Positions 51,033 through 61,744 of a DNA stretch of 64,000 nt are shown here, piece by piece. A program made the translations under genes and the position numbers. This stretch comes from an uncultured Dehalococcoidia bacterium (GTDB taxonomy: Bacteria > Chloroflexota > Dehalococcoidia > Lucifugimonadales > UBA3495), in contig OX638345.1 in the NCBI GenBank assembly GCA_951813535.1, positions 3,154,608-3,218,607 of the forward strand, written 5' to 3'. Every line of letters starts with the position of its first letter. The first letter of the stretch is position 1. Below the pieces are notes generated by a model. It worked only from the letters and a program-made list of their open reading frames with translations, was not told the origin of the DNA and ran no database searches.

Positions 51033-51286
51033 GGAACTTGCGGACAGCTTGGGCTGGGTTTTTCGCGATAGGTGTTTTTCTGATCGCGGCCGACGCTTTG
51101 GCCAACGCCGTGGTCAGCATTCGCGGGGTTCCGGCCTTGGGAGTGGTTGGTGGGGCAATGGTACTGTTGGTTTTTGCCTCGGTTTTAAATTGGGGATATT
51201 CAAGGAAGCATGGGAACAGCGCAATAAACCGAGCAGCGAATAGGAGGAGTTTGGAATGGCAAGTTTTTGGGAAAAGATCAACGTAG
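51029..51286 (+). CDS. Small membrane protein coupled to 50844-51032
   Basis: An 85-residue protein with two hydrophobic helices (about residues 8-28 and 37-56) and a basic C-terminal tail. I do not recognise a family. The ATG overlaps the previous stop by four bases. Its last 31 bases overlap the start of the dienelactone hydrolase gene, which has its own AGGAGGAG site, so the end of this reading frame may be fortuitous. It could be part of a small membrane pair or be absent in relatives. Confidence 0.5.
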   Translation: MRNLRTAWAGFFAIGVFLIAADALANAVVSIRGVPALGVVGGAMVLLVFASVLNWGYSRKHGNSAINRAANRRSLEWQVFGKRST

Positions 51287-51996
51287 ATGGGCACGAGATG
51301 GATATGTATGCCAGCGTGCCGTCCAGCAGCGCAGGGTTCTCCGCGCCGTTTCCGGCAGTGGTGGTAGCCCAGCACGCCACCGGTGTGGACGCGTTCATAC
51401 AGGACATCTGCGATCGGTTGGCGGCGGATGGCTACGCGGCGGTCGCGCCCAATCTGTACCATCGGCATAGCAAAGAAGCGATTGCCGCGTCTGCCGGCGG
51501 TGGACCACGGCCAAGTCCGGCGACGCTGCTCAGCGACCCAAGCATCGTTGCCGACATGACCGCAACCGTTGACTGGCTACTCAGCCACGACGCCGTTCAG
51601 AGCGACCAGATCGGCGTAACGGGATTCTGCATGGGCGGACGCGTGGCATGGCTGGCAGCCGCAACCAACCCGAACTTCAAGGCCGTGGTCCCGTATTACG
51701 GCGGCAACCTGATGACCACCTGGGGCACCGGAGAAACGCCTCCGTTTGATTTGGCAAATAATATCGACTGCCCCATGCTGTTCCACTTCGGCGAGATTGA
51801 CGCCAACCCGTCGCAGGACGATATGCGGAAGATCGACGCCGAACTGGACCGGCTGGGAAAGGCGCACCAGTTCCATACGTACGCCGGAGCCGACCACGCC
51901 TTCATGAACCCGTCTGGCGGCAGGTACCAGGAAGCCGCGGCGGTGGCATCCTGGCCGCGCACCCTGGAGTTCTTTGCGCAGCACCTGAAGGGTTAG
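51256..51996 (+). CDS. Dienelactone hydrolase-family protein
   Basis: A 246-residue alpha/beta hydrolase. The catalytic Cys is in VTGFCMGGRVAWLAA near residue 123, the Asp in FGEIDANPSQDDM near 178, and the His in AGADHAFMNPSG near 214. The first strand begins PFPAVVVAQHATGVDAFIQ. Dienelactone hydrolases open lactone rings in catechol breakdown. AGGAGGAG precedes the ATG. A close paralogue follows at 52075. Confidence 0.9.
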   Translation: MASFWEKINVDGHEMDMYASVPSSSAGFSAPFPAVVVAQHATGVDAFIQDICDRLAADGYAAVAPNLYHRHSKEAIAASAGGGPRPSPATLLSDPSIVADMTATVDWLLSHDAVQSDQIGVTGFCMGGRVAWLAAATNPNFKAVVPYYGGNLMTTWGTGETPPFDLANNIDCPMLFHFGEIDANPSQDDMRKIDAELDRLGKAHQFHTYAGADHAFMNPSGGRYQEAAAVASWPRTLEFFAQHLKG

Positions 51997-52074
51997 CAAA
52001 TCCCATGGGACGGACCATCATCGTCGTCCCAGCGTAACGTGTACCGTAATTCCGTCGAAACAGGAGGTATCACC

Positions 52075-52800
52075 ATGGCCAGTTTCTGGGAAAAACTCAC
52101 AGTTGACGGCAGCGAAATGGATATGTACGCCAGCGTGCCCAGCAGCAGCGCCGGTTTTTCCGCTCCCTATCCGGCGGTGGTGGTGGCGCAGCACGGCGGG
52201 GGCGTGGACGAGTTCATCCAAACCATCTGCGACCGACTGGCCGCCGAGGGCTACGCCGCCGTGGCTCCGAACCTGTACCACCGTAACTCAGACGAGGTGA
52301 TGAACGCCGACCCGCGACCCCGGCCCTGGGACGTGCTCAGCGACCCCGGCATCGTGGCCGACGTCAACGCCACGGTGGAATGGCTGCGCAACCACGACGC
52401 GGTGACCGACCGCATCGGCGTGACCGGCTTCTGCATGGGCGGACGCGTGGCCTGGCTGGCCGCGGCTAGCAACCCTCACTTCAGCGCCGTCGCGCCGTAT
52501 TACGGTGGCAACCTCCTGGTGACGTGGGGAGCGGGCGAGACGCCCCCGTTCGAACTGGCCGCCAATATCAACTGCCCGATGTTATTCCACTTCGGCGAGG
52601 TCGACGAAAATCCCTCACAGGATGACATGCGCAGGTTCGACGAGGAATTGAACCGTCTGGGCAAGGAGCACCAGTTCTACGTGTACCGGGACGCCGATCA
52701 CGCCTTCATGGACTTCACTGGCCCACGCTACCATAAGGAAGCCGCCGACCGCTCGTGGCCTCGAACCCTGGAGTTCTTCGCGCAGCATCTCAAGTCCTGA
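52075..52800 (+). CDS. Dienelactone hydrolase-family protein (tandem paralogue)
   Basis: A 241-residue paralogue of the preceding gene with the same motifs: GVTGFCMGGRVAWLAA with the nucleophile Cys, FGEVDENPSQDDM and RDADHAFMDFTG. I start it at the ATG at 52075, with CAGGAGGTATCACC upstream. The two genes are collinear and very similar, so this is a recent tandem duplication. The first copy has a Ser/Ala/Gly-rich insert near residue 77 where this one has VMNADPRPRP. Confidence 0.9.
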   Translation: MASFWEKLTVDGSEMDMYASVPSSSAGFSAPYPAVVVAQHGGGVDEFIQTICDRLAAEGYAAVAPNLYHRNSDEVMNADPRPRPWDVLSDPGIVADVNATVEWLRNHDAVTDRIGVTGFCMGGRVAWLAAASNPHFSAVAPYYGGNLLVTWGAGETPPFELAANINCPMLFHFGEVDENPSQDDMRRFDEELNRLGKEHQFYVYRDADHAFMDFTGPRYHKEAADRSWPRTLEFFAQHLKS

Positions 52801-56969: not shown

Positions 56970-57422
56970 ATGACCACACCCACCTCTTCAGACTTCCCCA
57001 CGGCTTCCGACTACGCAGTCCATACCGATGACAACATCACCTTGCTGGCCAGCAAGATAATCCGGGACGTGCTGGTGACCCGGGGCGAACCCATCCGCCG
57101 GGCCCAACTTTGGCAAGCTGTAGAACTGGCCATGGGAGAACGCTCCCCCGACGTCGACGGTGTGCTGAAACGTGACTGGTTCACCAACCAGGACACGGGT
57201 CCCGGCCGGTGGAAGCTGACAGACATCGCCGGCGCCGAAGCTTCGCCTTTCATGGACGCGTCGGGAACGGTAAACCTGGCTGCGGTGGTGGAATATATGC
57301 GCGTCTGTCGCCAGGGCGAAGCACCTTACATCGGCGACCTGGGGGACTTCATCAAGATCTGCAACCCCAGCGTTGAACTGGACGCCGGGTGGCTGGTTGG
57401 CGGCAATATAACGCGAGCATAA
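56970..57422 (+). CDS. Hypothetical protein upstream of a PaREP1-like gene
   Basis: A 150-residue protein that I do not recognise. I start it at the ATG at 56970 with GGAGATCC upstream. It is soluble and looks alpha/beta: ITLLASKIIRDVLVTRGEPIRRAQLWQAVELAMG resembles the helical part of a winged helix (quoted in two parts), then a region ending GRWKLTDIAG. The stop is five bases before the start of the PaREP1/HEPN-like gene, so the two are co-transcribed. It may be a regulatory partner. Confidence 0.62.
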   Translation: MTTPTSSDFPTASDYAVHTDDNITLLASKIIRDVLVTRGEPIRRAQLWQAVELAMGERSPDVDGVLKRDWFTNQDTGPGRWKLTDIAGAEASPFMDASGTVNLAAVVEYMRVCRQGEAPYIGDLGDFIKICNPSVELDAGWLVGGNITRA

Positions 57423-57427
57423 AACCC

Positions 57428-57796
57428 ATGGCGACAAGTGCGGACACCATCGCCTATGACCAGGAACGCAGCCGGCATTTTCTGGATCTCGTGGACGACG
57501 AACTGGCCCGTGGCGAGTTGGAAGAGGCCAGCAAAAAAGTTTGGGGCGCGGCCGCTCATGCCATCAAAGCGGTGGCGGAACGCCGGGGTTGGGAGCACCA
57601 CGCTCACAATCTTTTAGAACAGGCGGTTAATCGGTTGGTGCGCGAAGAGGGCGCGCCGATGGACCTGTGGATTCAGTATCTGACTGCGTCCGCCTACCAC
57701 CATCGATTTTATGGAGGGCCGCCTCCCGATGATGCAATTCGGGCCGGGAAAGAACTCATAGCCCAATTCATAGATACGCTGGAACGCCTGGATTGA
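57428..57796 (+). CDS. PaREP1/HEPN-type small helical protein
   Basis: A 122-residue all-helical protein. SRHFLDLVDDELARGELEEA then KVWGAAAHAIKAVAERRGW is the pattern of PaREP1-type proteins, a HEPN-like family common in archaea and some Chloroflexota. It lacks the R-x4-6-H motif of RNase HEPNs, though HxxH appears as HHAHNLL near residue 55. Function is unknown; HEPN proteins often act with nucleotidyltransferases, and none is here. It starts five bases after the 56970 gene. Confidence 0.7.
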   Translation: MATSADTIAYDQERSRHFLDLVDDELARGELEEASKKVWGAAAHAIKAVAERRGWEHHAHNLLEQAVNRLVREEGAPMDLWIQYLTASAYHHRFYGGPPPDDAIRAGKELIAQFIDTLERLD

Positions 57797-58001: not shown

Positions 58002-59861
58002 ATGGCTGAACCAACAACCCGTATCGTTGAAAGCGACGTCCTGATCATCGGCGGCGGCATGTCCGGCTGCGGCGCGGCAATCGAAGCCCGCTATTGGGGT
58101 GGAGACGACCTGCGCATCGTGATGGTGGACAAGGCGGCCACCGACCGCAGCGGAGCAGTTGGCGAAGGGCTGTCCGCCATCAACATGTACATGGGGATGC
58201 GGCACGGTTGGAATCAGCCGGAAGACTACGTCGAGTACGTTCGGAACGACATGATGGGCATCTCCCGCGAGGACCTCGTGTACGACATCGCTCGCCACGT
58301 GGACAGCAGCGTGCACATGTTCGAGGAGTGGGGCCTTCCCTTCTGGTACGACGACGAAGGGCTGTACGTCCGTGAGGGTCGCTGGCAGGTGATGATTCAC
58401 GGTGAGGCCTACAAGCCCATCGTATCCGAGGCAACCAAGAAGGTGATCGGTCCGGAGGACCACTACGAGCGGGTTTTCATCTCCCACCTGTTCACCGACG
58501 CTGACGACTCGAACCGGATCGCCGGGGCAGTCGGCTTTGGTGTCCGCGAGGACGTGATCTACGTGTTCAAAGCTCGTGCAGTCATCAGCGCGGCCGGCGG
58601 AGCAACCGCGTTGTTCCGGCCCCGCAGCGTTGGTGAGGGAATGGGTCGCACGTGGTACTCCATCTTCGACACCGGATCAGTGTACGGGTTGGTGATCCCA
58701 GTGGGCGCCGAGATGACCCAGATGGAGCACCGCTTCGTCCCCAGTCGGTTCAAGGACTCCTATGGGCCGGTGGGCGCGTGGTCGCAGCTGTTTCGCGCCG
58801 ACCTGACCAACGCGGCCGGCGAAAACTATTTCATCAACCGGCTCCCGGAGCTCAAAAAGTACGATCCCTACGGGTCGGCGTTCCCTACGCCAACTCCTCT
58901 GCGCAACCACCTTCTGTGGACGGAGATCCAGGCCGGCAACGGGCCGATCCAGCTCAAAACCCCGGAGGCCATCGACGCGCTGGCCGCCGGCGACGAAGCA
59001 CGGAAACGGGAGATCATCGCGGAGGCGTGGGAAGACTTCCTGGACATGACGATCTCTCAAGCCATTCTTTGGGCGGCACACAATATCGCTCCGGAGGAAC
59101 GTCCTTCCGAGGTCGTGCTGGCCGAGCCGTACATCATGGGCAGCCACAGCGGCGAATCAGGGGCGTGGGTCAGCGGCCCTTCGGATGTCGCGCCCGACGG
59201 ATACCACTGGGGCTATAACAAGATGACCACAGTGCAGGGCCTGTTTGCCGCCGGCGACGGCGTGGGAGCGTGCCCGCACAAGTTCTCGTCGGGTTCCTTT
59301 ACCGAGGGACGACTGGCCGGCAAGTCAGCCGTGACCTACGCCATGGACAACCCGGGTCAACCCAATACGGACGACCACCAGATTGACGAGCTCAAGCGGA
59401 AGGTCTGGGCGCCGATGGTGACCTTCGAAGAGAACCAGTATGCGTCCAGCAACCCGGACGTTAATCCCAATTACCTGCTCCCGCGCCAGGGTCTGTACCG
59501 GCTCCAAAAGCTGATGGATGAGTACGTGGCGGGTGTTTCCGCTGGATTCACCACCAACGAAGCCACCATGCTGCGCGGATTGGAACTGCTGGGCATGTTC
59601 CGGGAAGACCTCGAGAAACTGGGAGCCCGCAACCGCCACGAATTGCTGCGCTGCCACGAACTGATCCACCGCGCCTGGGTTGGAGAAGCGCATCTGCGCC
59701 ACATGCTCCATCGCAAGGAAACCCGGTGGCCCGGCTTCTACTACCGGAGCGACTACCCCGAAATGGACGAGGCTAACTGGAAGGTGTTCGTCAATTCGCG
59801 TTACGACGCGGAGAAAGGCGAGTGGAACGTTTTCACCCGGCCCTGCCCGCAGGTGTTCTAG
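58002..59861 (+). CDS. AprA-type adenylylsulfate reductase alpha-subunit homologue, no AprB nearby
   Basis: A 619-residue FAD protein of the fumarate-reductase/AprA family. AprA hallmarks: LIIGGGMSGCGAAIEA at 15-30, RNDMMGISREDLVYDIARHVD near 84-104, and RWQVMIHGEAYKPIV near 127-141. FRPRSVGEGMGRTWYSI is near 207, FVPSRFKDSYGPVGAW holds R249, and YIMGSHSGESGAWVSGP holds H382. R249 and H382 are each 16 below R265 and H398, remembered as the APS-binding pair of Archaeoglobus AprA. The small AprB ferredoxin gene that normally precedes aprA is missing: a PaREP1-like gene is upstream and a DinB-like one downstream. It may act on sulfite/APS or on another substrate. Confidence 0.85.
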   Translation: MAEPTTRIVESDVLIIGGGMSGCGAAIEARYWGGDDLRIVMVDKAATDRSGAVGEGLSAINMYMGMRHGWNQPEDYVEYVRNDMMGISREDLVYDIARHVDSSVHMFEEWGLPFWYDDEGLYVREGRWQVMIHGEAYKPIVSEATKKVIGPEDHYERVFISHLFTDADDSNRIAGAVGFGVREDVIYVFKARAVISAAGGATALFRPRSVGEGMGRTWYSIFDTGSVYGLVIPVGAEMTQMEHRFVPSRFKDSYGPVGAWSQLFRADLTNAAGENYFINRLPELKKYDPYGSAFPTPTPLRNHLLWTEIQAGNGPIQLKTPEAIDALAAGDEARKREIIAEAWEDFLDMTISQAILWAAHNIAPEERPSEVVLAEPYIMGSHSGESGAWVSGPSDVAPDGYHWGYNKMTTVQGLFAAGDGVGACPHKFSSGSFTEGRLAGKSAVTYAMDNPGQPNTDDHQIDELKRKVWAPMVTFEENQYASSNPDVNPNYLLPRQGLYRLQKLMDEYVAGVSAGFTTNEATMLRGLELLGMFREDLEKLGARNRHELLRCHELIHRAWVGEAHLRHMLHRKETRWPGFYYRSDYPEMDEANWKVFVNSRYDAEKGEWNVFTRPCPQVF

Positions 59862-59922: not shown

Positions 59923-60516
59923 ATGAACGACGAAGGACCCAAGCCTGTGGAGTTGCTGGCGACGGCAATCGACCGGGTGCGCGAGGTTATGTCCGGCGTC
60001 GCCCAGTCTCAATTGGATGCTGCTACCCCTTGCTCCGAGTGGGACGTTTGCGCCCTCATGAACCACATGCTGGGCGGGATCGAAACGACCGCAGGCAGCA
60101 TGGCGGGAAACCCGCCGGACCTGCGCCCAATGGAGGCCGACAGCAGCCTGGTTGGACAGCGGGATGTCTCAGCGTTGGTGGAAACTTATCGGAACGCAAC
60201 TGAGCGGTTACTGCAATTGGCTCAGGAGCCGGGTGCTCTGAACCGTATAGTTCCGTCCCCGTTCGGAGAAATGCCCGCGGCGCGATTCGTGGTCGGCACC
60301 GTGTTGGACCAAACCATCCACTGTTGGGATCTGGCCAAGGCCACCGGGCAGGAGACCACCTTGCCCGCCGAGCTGGTCGCGTACGCGATGCCGGTCCTGT
60401 CGGGCGGCTTTGCGGAAGGCGGTCGGGCCATGGGCGTTGTGGGCCCTGAGATCCAAGTTCCCGAGGGAGCCAACGAACAGGACAGGCTGATCGGCTTCAT
60501 GGGACGCCAGCCGTAA
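59923..60516 (+). CDS. DinB/maleylpyruvate isomerase-type metal-binding protein
   Basis: A 197-residue protein from the ATG at 59923; an open frame further back is a shadow of aprA. The pattern SQLDAATPCSEWDVCALMNHMLGGI near residue 30 with HMLG, and VLDQTIHCWDLAKATGQ near 135 with a second His, is that of TIGR03086-type proteins in the DinB/MDMPI superfamily. They bind a metal with His residues and can use mycothiol or glutathione-type thiols. The function here is unknown. It begins 61 bases after aprA. Confidence 0.8.
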   Translation: MNDEGPKPVELLATAIDRVREVMSGVAQSQLDAATPCSEWDVCALMNHMLGGIETTAGSMAGNPPDLRPMEADSSLVGQRDVSALVETYRNATERLLQLAQEPGALNRIVPSPFGEMPAARFVVGTVLDQTIHCWDLAKATGQETTLPAELVAYAMPVLSGGFAEGGRAMGVVGPEIQVPEGANEQDRLIGFMGRQP

Positions 60517-60528
60517 CCGGAAGGGGCA

Positions 60529-60858
60529 ATGGCCTACGACGAATCGCTGGCCACCCGGGTCAAAGAAATCCTTTCGGTACGGGCCGATATTGCCGAACGC
60601 AGGATGTTCGGCGGGTTGGCGTTCATGCTGGCCGGGAACATGTGCTGCTGCGTGACTGAGAGCGGCTTGATAGTGCGGGTCGGGTCGGAGGGTTACGAGG
60701 AAGCGCTGGCGCTGCCCCACGCCGGCCTCATGGACTTTACGGGCCGGCCGATGCGGGGCTGGGTTCTGGTGCGGCCTGGAGGGCTGACGTCTCACGCCGG
60801 ACTGAACGAGTGGGTGACCCGGGGAATCGAGTTCGCCGCCACCTTGCCGCGCAAATAA
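60529..60858 (+). CDS. TfoX/Sxy N-terminal-domain protein
   Basis: A 109-residue protein matching the TfoX N-terminal domain: RRMFGGLAFMLAGNMCCCV near residue 25, then GLIVRVGSEGYEEAL and MRGWVLVRPGGLTS. Full TfoX also has a C-terminal domain that is absent here. TfoX controls competence in gamma-proteobacteria; stand-alone N-terminal domains are common and of unknown role. It begins 12 bases after the DinB-like gene, probably in one transcript. Confidence 0.85.
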   Translation: MAYDESLATRVKEILSVRADIAERRMFGGLAFMLAGNMCCCVTESGLIVRVGSEGYEEALALPHAGLMDFTGRPMRGWVLVRPGGLTSHAGLNEWVTRGIEFAATLPRK

Positions 60859-60898
60859 ACCGGATTTGCCCGATCCCGCAGTAAACAGGAGCACAGCC

Positions 60899-61744
60899 AT
60901 GCAAGCCATCGACATGCACATCCACGTACCCCGCGAGCCGGGGCTGCCGGAGATCGAGATTGAGGCGGAGTTGCTGCGGTACTTCCGGGCCCCACCGCCG
61001 CCCAAAGATCCGGCGGAGATGGCCGACAAGTTCCGCGAACTGGACCTGTACGGCGTGATCTTTTCGGTGGACACCACCACCAATACCGGAGAGAAACCCG
61101 ACAGCAACGACTGGGTGGCCAGCATCGTCAACTCCCATCCCGAGCAATTCATGGGGTTTGCCTCGGTGGACCCCTGGCTGGGCAAGGCGGCGTGCTACGA
61201 ATTGGAGCGGGCGGTGAACGAGCTGGGACTGAAGGGCCTCAAGCTGCATCCCATCCACCAGGCCTTCTTTCCGAACGACACACGCTTCTACCCGTTGTAC
61301 GAGGTGGCTGATGGACTGGGCATTCCCGTGCTGTTTCACTCGGGATTCGCCGGCGCAGGGTCCGGCACGCCCGGAGGGAGCGGCCTGAAGCTGAAGTACA
61401 GCCAGCCGATCCCCTGCTTTGACGACGTGGCGGCCGACTTTCCCAACATGACCATCATCATGGCGCACCCGGCCTGGCCCTGGATAGACGAGCAGATCGC
61501 CGTGGCCCTGCACAAGTCCAACGTGTTCCTCGACCTGTCCGGCTGGATGCCCAGGTTCATACCCGAAACGCTGATCCGGGAGACTAACACGCGGTTGCAG
61601 GACAAGGTAATGTTCGGCTCAGATTACCCGTTCATCCAACCGGACAACTGGCTGGCGGACTTCCAGAACCTGCAGATGCGGGACCACGTGATTCCCAAGG
61701 TGCTGCTGGAGAACGCCCGCCGGGCGCTCAACGTTGCCGCCTGA
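60899..61744 (+). CDS. Amidohydrolase-family (ACMS decarboxylase-like) protein
   Basis: A 281-residue TIM-barrel metal enzyme beginning MQAIDMHIHV, the first metal-binding His pair. GLKGLKLHPIHQAFFPND near residue 110 includes a Lys/His, PVLFHSGFAG near 142 the next His, and IIMAHPAWPWIDEQIAVAL near 190 another. YPFIQPDNW near 245 follows the final Asp (FGSDYPF). It belongs to amidohydrolase_2, with decarboxylases and hydrolases. ACAGGAGCACAGCC precedes the ATG. The substrate is unknown. Confidence 0.87.
   Translation: MQAIDMHIHVPREPGLPEIEIEAELLRYFRAPPPPKDPAEMADKFRELDLYGVIFSVDTTTNTGEKPDSNDWVASIVNSHPEQFMGFASVDPWLGKAACYELERAVNELGLKGLKLHPIHQAFFPNDTRFYPLYEVADGLGIPVLFHSGFAGAGSGTPGGSGLKLKYSQPIPCFDDVAADFPNMTIIMAHPAWPWIDEQIAVALHKSNVFLDLSGWMPRFIPETLIRETNTRLQDKVMFGSDYPFIQPDNWLADFQNLQMRDHVIPKVLLENARRALNVAA

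Follow-up and report, generated by a model that had tools for sequence, protein, structure and literature searches.

The adenylylsulfate (APS) reductase of Archaeoglobus fulgidus (AprBA; 1jnr, 2fja) is the reference for the residue numbers used here, in which A denotes AprA and B denotes AprB. Trp-B48, located between Fe-S cluster I and FAD, is reported as a strictly conserved residue that matters for electron transfer, and Leu-A278 clamps the adenine together with Arg-A317; Pyrobaculum enzymes lacking Trp-B48 were considered non-functional by the same authors (PMC2211403). For SAR202 bacteria, the part of Mehrshad et al. (PMC5864207) drawn on here describes AprBA and Sat with aprA in a separate clade, sat present and no dsr, and proposes sulfite oxidation, while sat and aprAB transcripts reported for SAR202 subcluster III were read as oxidative (PMC9416657). 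SAR202 bacteria make up a large share of the deep-ocean plankton and also occur in sponges; sulfite oxidation has been credited to them solely because they carry aprBA and sat, and no biochemistry of any SAR202 Apr was found in the openly licensed papers searched.

The window (the whole stretch of 64,000 nucleotides analysed here, from an uncultured Dehalococcoidia bacterium) contains an aprA gene that almost certainly encodes the large subunit of a genuine APS reductase, the partner genes of which are elsewhere on the chromosome. The reading as a whole, namely a genuine AprBA pair of the SAR202 clade with separated partner genes, working oxidatively with Sat and passing electrons by a tryptophan-free path to an acceptor other than Qmo or AprM, seems reasonably probable. 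The split gene order, the substitutions W48S in AprB and L278Q in AprA, and the absence of Qmo and AprM are new here in that none was found in the openly licensed literature, which is not proof of novelty.

The aprA gene and its distant partners

A first-pass annotation of the window, made without database searches, had noted a near full set of AprA-specific blocks and had placed Arg-249 and His-382 at an offset of 16 from the APS-binding pair of Archaeoglobus. The reading frame is open, and its product is indeed a full-length AprA, scoring 926.8 bits against the AprA equivalog TIGR02061 (cut-off 641.75; profile positions 1-615 of 616) and matching A. fulgidus 1jnr_A and 2fja_A with E ~1e-249 (1jnr_A over residues 4-618), and the two residues align with Arg-A265 and His-A398, at that offset. 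The catalytic residues Asn-A74, Trp-A234, Arg-A265 and His-A398 are all present, and in the adenine clamp Arg-A317 is kept and Leu-A278 is replaced by Gln. No second AprA copy was identified in the genome, only a weak match of the wider flavoprotein family, and a promoter scan 5′ of aprA gave nothing above chance. An AlphaFold model of AprA (30 sequences) had a mean pLDDT of 71.9 with active-site loops below 50, and was discarded for the pocket because it was too uncertain.

The neighbours named in the first-pass annotation, a PaREP1-like gene upstream and a DinB-like gene downstream, correspond to PF05942 and MDMPI_N matches (Table 1); MDMPI_N (PF11716) is a domain with a DinB-type fold. The same annotation was correct that no AprB, AprM or Sat gene adjoins aprA: aprB, sat, aprM and qmo are all absent beside it. 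Farther upstream, two adjacent and similar dienelactone-hydrolase-like genes (51256-51996 and 52039-52800, named by eye from the sequence) form a tandem duplicate.

Table 1. Features of the window at and around aprA, in window positions, with the corresponding residues of A. fulgidus
Feature	Position	Strand	Basis and remarks
aprA, APS reductase alpha subunit, SAR202 type, 619 aa	58002..59861	+	TIGR02061, 1jnr_A match, AprA tree
Arg-249 codon	58746..58748	+	Arg-A265 of A. fulgidus, active site; alignment
His-382 codon	59145..59147	+	His-A398 of A. fulgidus, active site; alignment
Gln-129 codon	58386..58388	+	Gln-A145, kept; would clash with the PAPS 3′-phosphate (role: PMC10322725)
Gln-262 codon	58785..58787	+	A278, Leu in 72/72 non-SAR202 sequences; adenine clamp (role of Leu-A278: PMC2211403)
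Trp-70 codon	58209..58211	+	A86, Trp restricted to the SAR202 clade in the comparison; adjoins channel-mouth residue A85
Gly-54 and Glu-55 codons	58161..58166	+	A67 and A68, elsewhere Ala and Gln/Met/His; just before FAD-contacting Leu-A70 and Asn-A74
PaREP1/HEPN-type gene, upstream of aprA	57389..57796	+	PF05942, 40.9 bits; relatives between aprB and aprA in linked species
MDMPI_N (DinB-like) gene, travelled with aprA	59968..60516	+	PF11716, 41.1 bits; downstream of aprA in genus loci
TfoX_N-domain gene, travelled with aprA	60529..60858	+	PF04993, 55.6 bits; genus loci
Amidohydrolase gene, travelled with aprA	60866..61744	+	PF04909, 150.3 bits; genus loci

The genome is a single contig of 4,377,943 bases (4.38 Mb) and is 99.8% complete. 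The search for aprB and sat that the first-pass annotation had recommended found one gene of each on the same contig as aprA. The aprB gene (C1:2802746-2803183, minus strand) is 409 kb from aprA, and its product scores 156.9 bits against TIGR02060 (cut-off 135.65) with all eight cysteines of the two [4Fe-4S] motifs kept; the sat gene (C1:1332216-1333454) encodes a protein that scores 339 bits against TIGR00339 (cut-off 323) and keeps the QTRN, HxxH and GRDHAG motifs. The relatives of AprA, AprB and Sat of this genome follow one lineage. Thus, of the options the first-pass annotation had offered, an AprB encoded elsewhere is correct, an orphan AprA without a partner is ruled out, and by that annotation's own criterion the window protein, with aprB and sat of matching phylogeny in the same genome, is a member of the APS reductase family. 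Sat was found in 28 of 28 genomes with SAR202-type AprA versus none of eight AprA-negative relatives in the same family (Fisher p = 3e-8, uncorrected for kinship). AprA and AprB are predicted to assemble as usual, into an alpha-beta complex that contains FAD and two [4Fe-4S] clusters.

A SAR202-specific clade of AprBA

The sequences compared came from two sources: a search that started from the window protein, of which the best 80 of 131 loci were used, and a set of 197 genomes from the order and 393 from the class; several loci represent one genome reached twice, and distinct counts are given where they matter. Because the sample was so gathered, exceptions to the residue contrasts given below may exist, of which Pyrobaculum, with Ala at B48, is a known one. 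Among the best 80 of the 131 loci, the closest sequences (92-97% identity) belong to MAGs that carry the label SAR202 cluster or Dehalococcoidia/Chloroflexota. The AprA of "SAR202 cluster bacterium bin87", presumably from an Aplysina sponge, is 97% identical to that of the window, the genus of which probably lives in sponges. Set aside as probable contamination was the AprA of another member of the order (G113), on a 4.6-kb contig (C2; L114, L142) that is probably misbinned: it groups with proteobacterial AprA, and no AprB or Sat was found in that genome.

In an AprA tree with SAR202 and other lineages, a check that had been proposed with the first-pass annotation, the window protein falls in the SAR202 clade, and a well-supported branch (SH-aLRT 99) separates the Ser48-type (SAR202) sequences from the rest. 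The Ser48 sequences are also on one side of a branch in an AprB tree from which column 48 was left out (SH-aLRT 98), so one origin of the substitution suffices. In the window genome, as in each of the 39 AprB loci of the clade (30 distinct sequences), Ser takes the place of Trp-B48, whereas the A. fulgidus reference and 71 of 71 other AprB loci covering the site (68 distinct) have Trp, other members of the same class among them. Position A278 is Gln in 43 of 43 SAR202 rows and Leu in 72 of 72 others; the clade also has Gly at A67 (Ala in the others), Glu at A68 (Gln, Met or His in the others) and Trp at A86 (absent elsewhere in the set). The Trp48 set has 102 invariant AprA columns, and A67 and A278 are the only two of these at which every SAR202 member carries a replacement. 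With G12A/S as a further mark in AprB, the AprBA pair is one SAR202-specific clade, distinguished by substitutions in both subunits. All 43 SAR202 AprA rows keep Asn-A74, Trp-A234, Arg-A265, His-A398, Arg-A317 and His-A446, the first four of which constitute the sulfur end of the active site, unchanged in the clade; Gln-A145 is likewise present in all 43.

Both genes are under strong purifying selection, with a median dN/dS within the genus of 0.049 for aprA and 0.051 for aprB. The Ser48 codon varies (TCC, TCG, TCT, TCA), a variety that would be compatible with selection for serine itself. The loss of Trp-B48 throughout a clade that is under purifying selection and keeps its catalytic residues amounts to a natural experiment on the need for this residue in electron transfer.

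Break-up of the sat-aprB-aprA cluster

The separate sites of aprB and sat go back to the dispersal of an ancestral sat-aprB-aprA cluster, which broke up within the SAR202 genus of the window. A sister lineage (L017, 80% identity) has the order sat-aprB-aprA, as do most loci of the family that were seen. Within the genus, sat no longer adjoins aprBA, and the gap between aprB and aprA is 52 bp in L050, approximately 470-490 bp in L009, L012, L014 and L015 (with a PaREP1 gene in the gap of the last three), 0.8 kb with PaREP1 genes in L011, 4.4 kb in L016 and 6 kb in L010; in the last two, PaREP1 genes flank the insert on both sides. In the subclade of the window, aprB and aprA are on different loci, and the last break is between aprB and a PaREP1 gene. 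The aprB gene of the split species still adjoins lepA in the same orientation as in linked species, and aprA, together with the MDMPI, TfoX and amidohydrolase genes, adjoins an NHL-repeat gene; in the split, aprB stayed beside lepA while aprA moved. The separation is recent, and aprB is kept in all four split genomes tested (G126, G134, G187 and the window genome). A 615-aa gene near aprB, an apparent fusion of two electron-transfer flavoprotein subunits judging by its sequence (L002:5161-7008), also stays near aprB in split relatives.

PaREP1 proteins belong to the HEPN superfamily (PMC3710099). They are expanded in the window genome, which has 25 PaREP1 matches, 23 of them over the cut-off; of the 14 control genomes, Sulfolobus alone has such genes. 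Several relatives have tandem PaREP1 copies between aprB and aprA, and the split may plausibly have arisen by recombination at copies of this kind. The stepwise separation of aprB from aprA is a caution that rules based on gene neighbourhood can miss genuine Apr partners.

Direction, substrate and electron acceptor

APS is very probably the intermediate common to AprBA and Sat. In the oxidative direction, sulfite would add to N5 of FAD and attack by AMP would then yield APS, which Sat would convert with pyrophosphate to sulfate and ATP; the two electrons would exit by way of the AprB clusters, where the usual tryptophan is missing, and their acceptor is predicted to be other than QmoABC or AprM, as far as the tested kinds go. 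QmoABC is linked to Apr in sulfate reducers and lineage II sulfur oxidisers, and AprM in lineage I sulfur oxidisers. A single QmoB query had no match in 28 Ser48-type genomes (the window genome and 27 relatives); the only full match was in G003, from whose own locus the query had been taken. G003 belongs to the same order, and its AprB has Trp48. A single AprM query recovered both control genomes and had no match in 28 SAR202-type genomes, although a very divergent AprM could be missed. A conserved neighbour was also considered as electron partner and rejected, because sat, aprB and aprA are the only genes common to all 22 loci compared from the order, other shared neighbours being patchy. The different electron partner envisaged by the first-pass annotation therefore gains indirect support, from the lack of QmoB and AprM relatives in 28 genomes and from the clade-wide Ser at B48; the different substrate that it had offered alongside does not, since neither the catalytic residues nor the APS-type Gln-A145 have changed and Sat is present in every case.

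Electron transfer rates across a protein gap are estimated by a standard tunnelling rule. For the published gap of 12.4 Å from cluster I to FAD (PMC2211403), the arithmetic gives ~30 to 4e5 per second, depending on packing and reorganisation energy, and electron flow need not stop on loss of Trp-B48.

AprBA probably works mainly in the oxidative direction. The proposed genome search for dsrAB found no dsrA over the cut-off, the weak matches being NirB and a NirA-like protein, which are the two siroheme reductases found in the genome; with no clearly assigned sulfite reductase and with the SAR202 transcripts read as oxidative, the route from sulfite through APS to sulfate is favoured. The main rival is that AprBA and Sat run reductively for assimilation, converting sulfate to APS and APS to sulfite in place of CysH, with the NirA-like siroheme enzyme completing the pathway. 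No match to the CysH family (PF01507) was identified in the window genome, compared with matches in all 14 control genomes, the NirA-like enzyme could in principle reduce sulfite, and a dissimilatory-type enzyme performs such a job in Methanothermococcus (PMC10322725). However, the NirA-like protein is nearer to nitrite than to sulfite reductases (1zj8 1.2e-45 versus plant Sir 3.8e-21), its gene is located by PhoU, transporter and HemD genes rather than among sulfur genes, AprA and Sat are patchy among close relatives in a way that would not be expected of a core biosynthetic step, and the published transcripts were taken as oxidative (PMC9416657). Assimilatory reduction is accordingly considered unlikely.

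Much less probable still is that the SAR202 enzyme takes a different nucleotide or sulfonyl substrate such as PAPS. Such a substrate might be suggested by L278Q, F277S and Trp-86, all of them near the channel's nucleotide end, and the residue at A278, so sharply divided between SAR202 and all others, aligns with Gln in the alpha subunit of the methanogen PAPS reductase as well; PAPS is nevertheless unlikely because Gln-A145, which would clash with its 3′-phosphate (PMC10322725), is kept throughout, and PAPS specificity was rejected on that residue. Sat, which makes or uses APS, co-occurs perfectly with SAR202-type AprA, and its gene adjoins aprBA in related genera. The changes at B48 and A278 and the separation of aprA from aprB might instead mark a decaying, non-functional relic, as was argued for the Pyrobaculum enzymes on loss of the supposedly strictly conserved tryptophan (PMC2211403), but a dN/dS of ~0.05 in both genes led to rejection of this explanation; serine maintained across varying codons, the full set of catalytic residues and Fe-S cysteines, and the retention of aprB in every split genome tested and of Sat in all 28 genomes make it highly improbable.

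The oxidative reading with APS as substrate leads to a more tentative proposal, to which somewhat less than an even chance is given: that SAR202 AprBA forms a functional class of its own among APS reductases, with intact sulfur chemistry, a tryptophan-free electron path, a remodelled nucleotide end, and an acceptor that is not QmoABC or AprM. If this is true, the distinct class would serve sulfite oxidation with a gain of ATP in a lineage that is very abundant in the deep ocean and also associated with sponges. With Qmo and AprM missing, the electron acceptor of SAR202 sulfite oxidation becomes a defined question. The order also contains another type of AprBA, in G003 (L026, L113), with Trp48, followed by qmoABC, and with sat ~120 kb away; its AprA groups with one AprA from groundwater Chloroflexi, which suggests two separate Apr histories in one order.

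Compared with known systems, the window pair is like A. fulgidus AprBA over its full length and shares with it Asn-A74, Trp-A234, Arg-A265, His-A398, Arg-A317 and the eight Fe-S cysteines, but has Ser at B48, Gln at A278, Gly at A67 (Ala in A. fulgidus) and Glu at A68 (Gln in A. fulgidus); its genes are unlinked, and QmoB, another of the proposed checks, was not found in the window genome. The Methanothermococcus PAPS reductase (8a8o) is a distant alpha-beta relative that shares Gln at the A278 position; it keeps Trp at the electron-path site (Trp42) and differs from APS reductases at the site of Gln-A145, whereas the SAR202 enzyme has lost this Trp and keeps the Gln. Pyrobaculum AprBA, with Ala at B48, is the other published loss of this tryptophan that was found (PMC2211403); it has also lost Asn-A74 and is thought inactive, in contrast to the SAR202 enzyme, which keeps Asn-A74 and is under purifying selection. 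By sequence and by organism, the window protein belongs to the same lineage as the SAR202 AprBA of Mehrshad et al. (PMC5864207), to which the split gene order, the AprB W48S and AprA L278Q substitutions and the missing Qmo and AprM, unmentioned in the part of that paper drawn on here, are now added.
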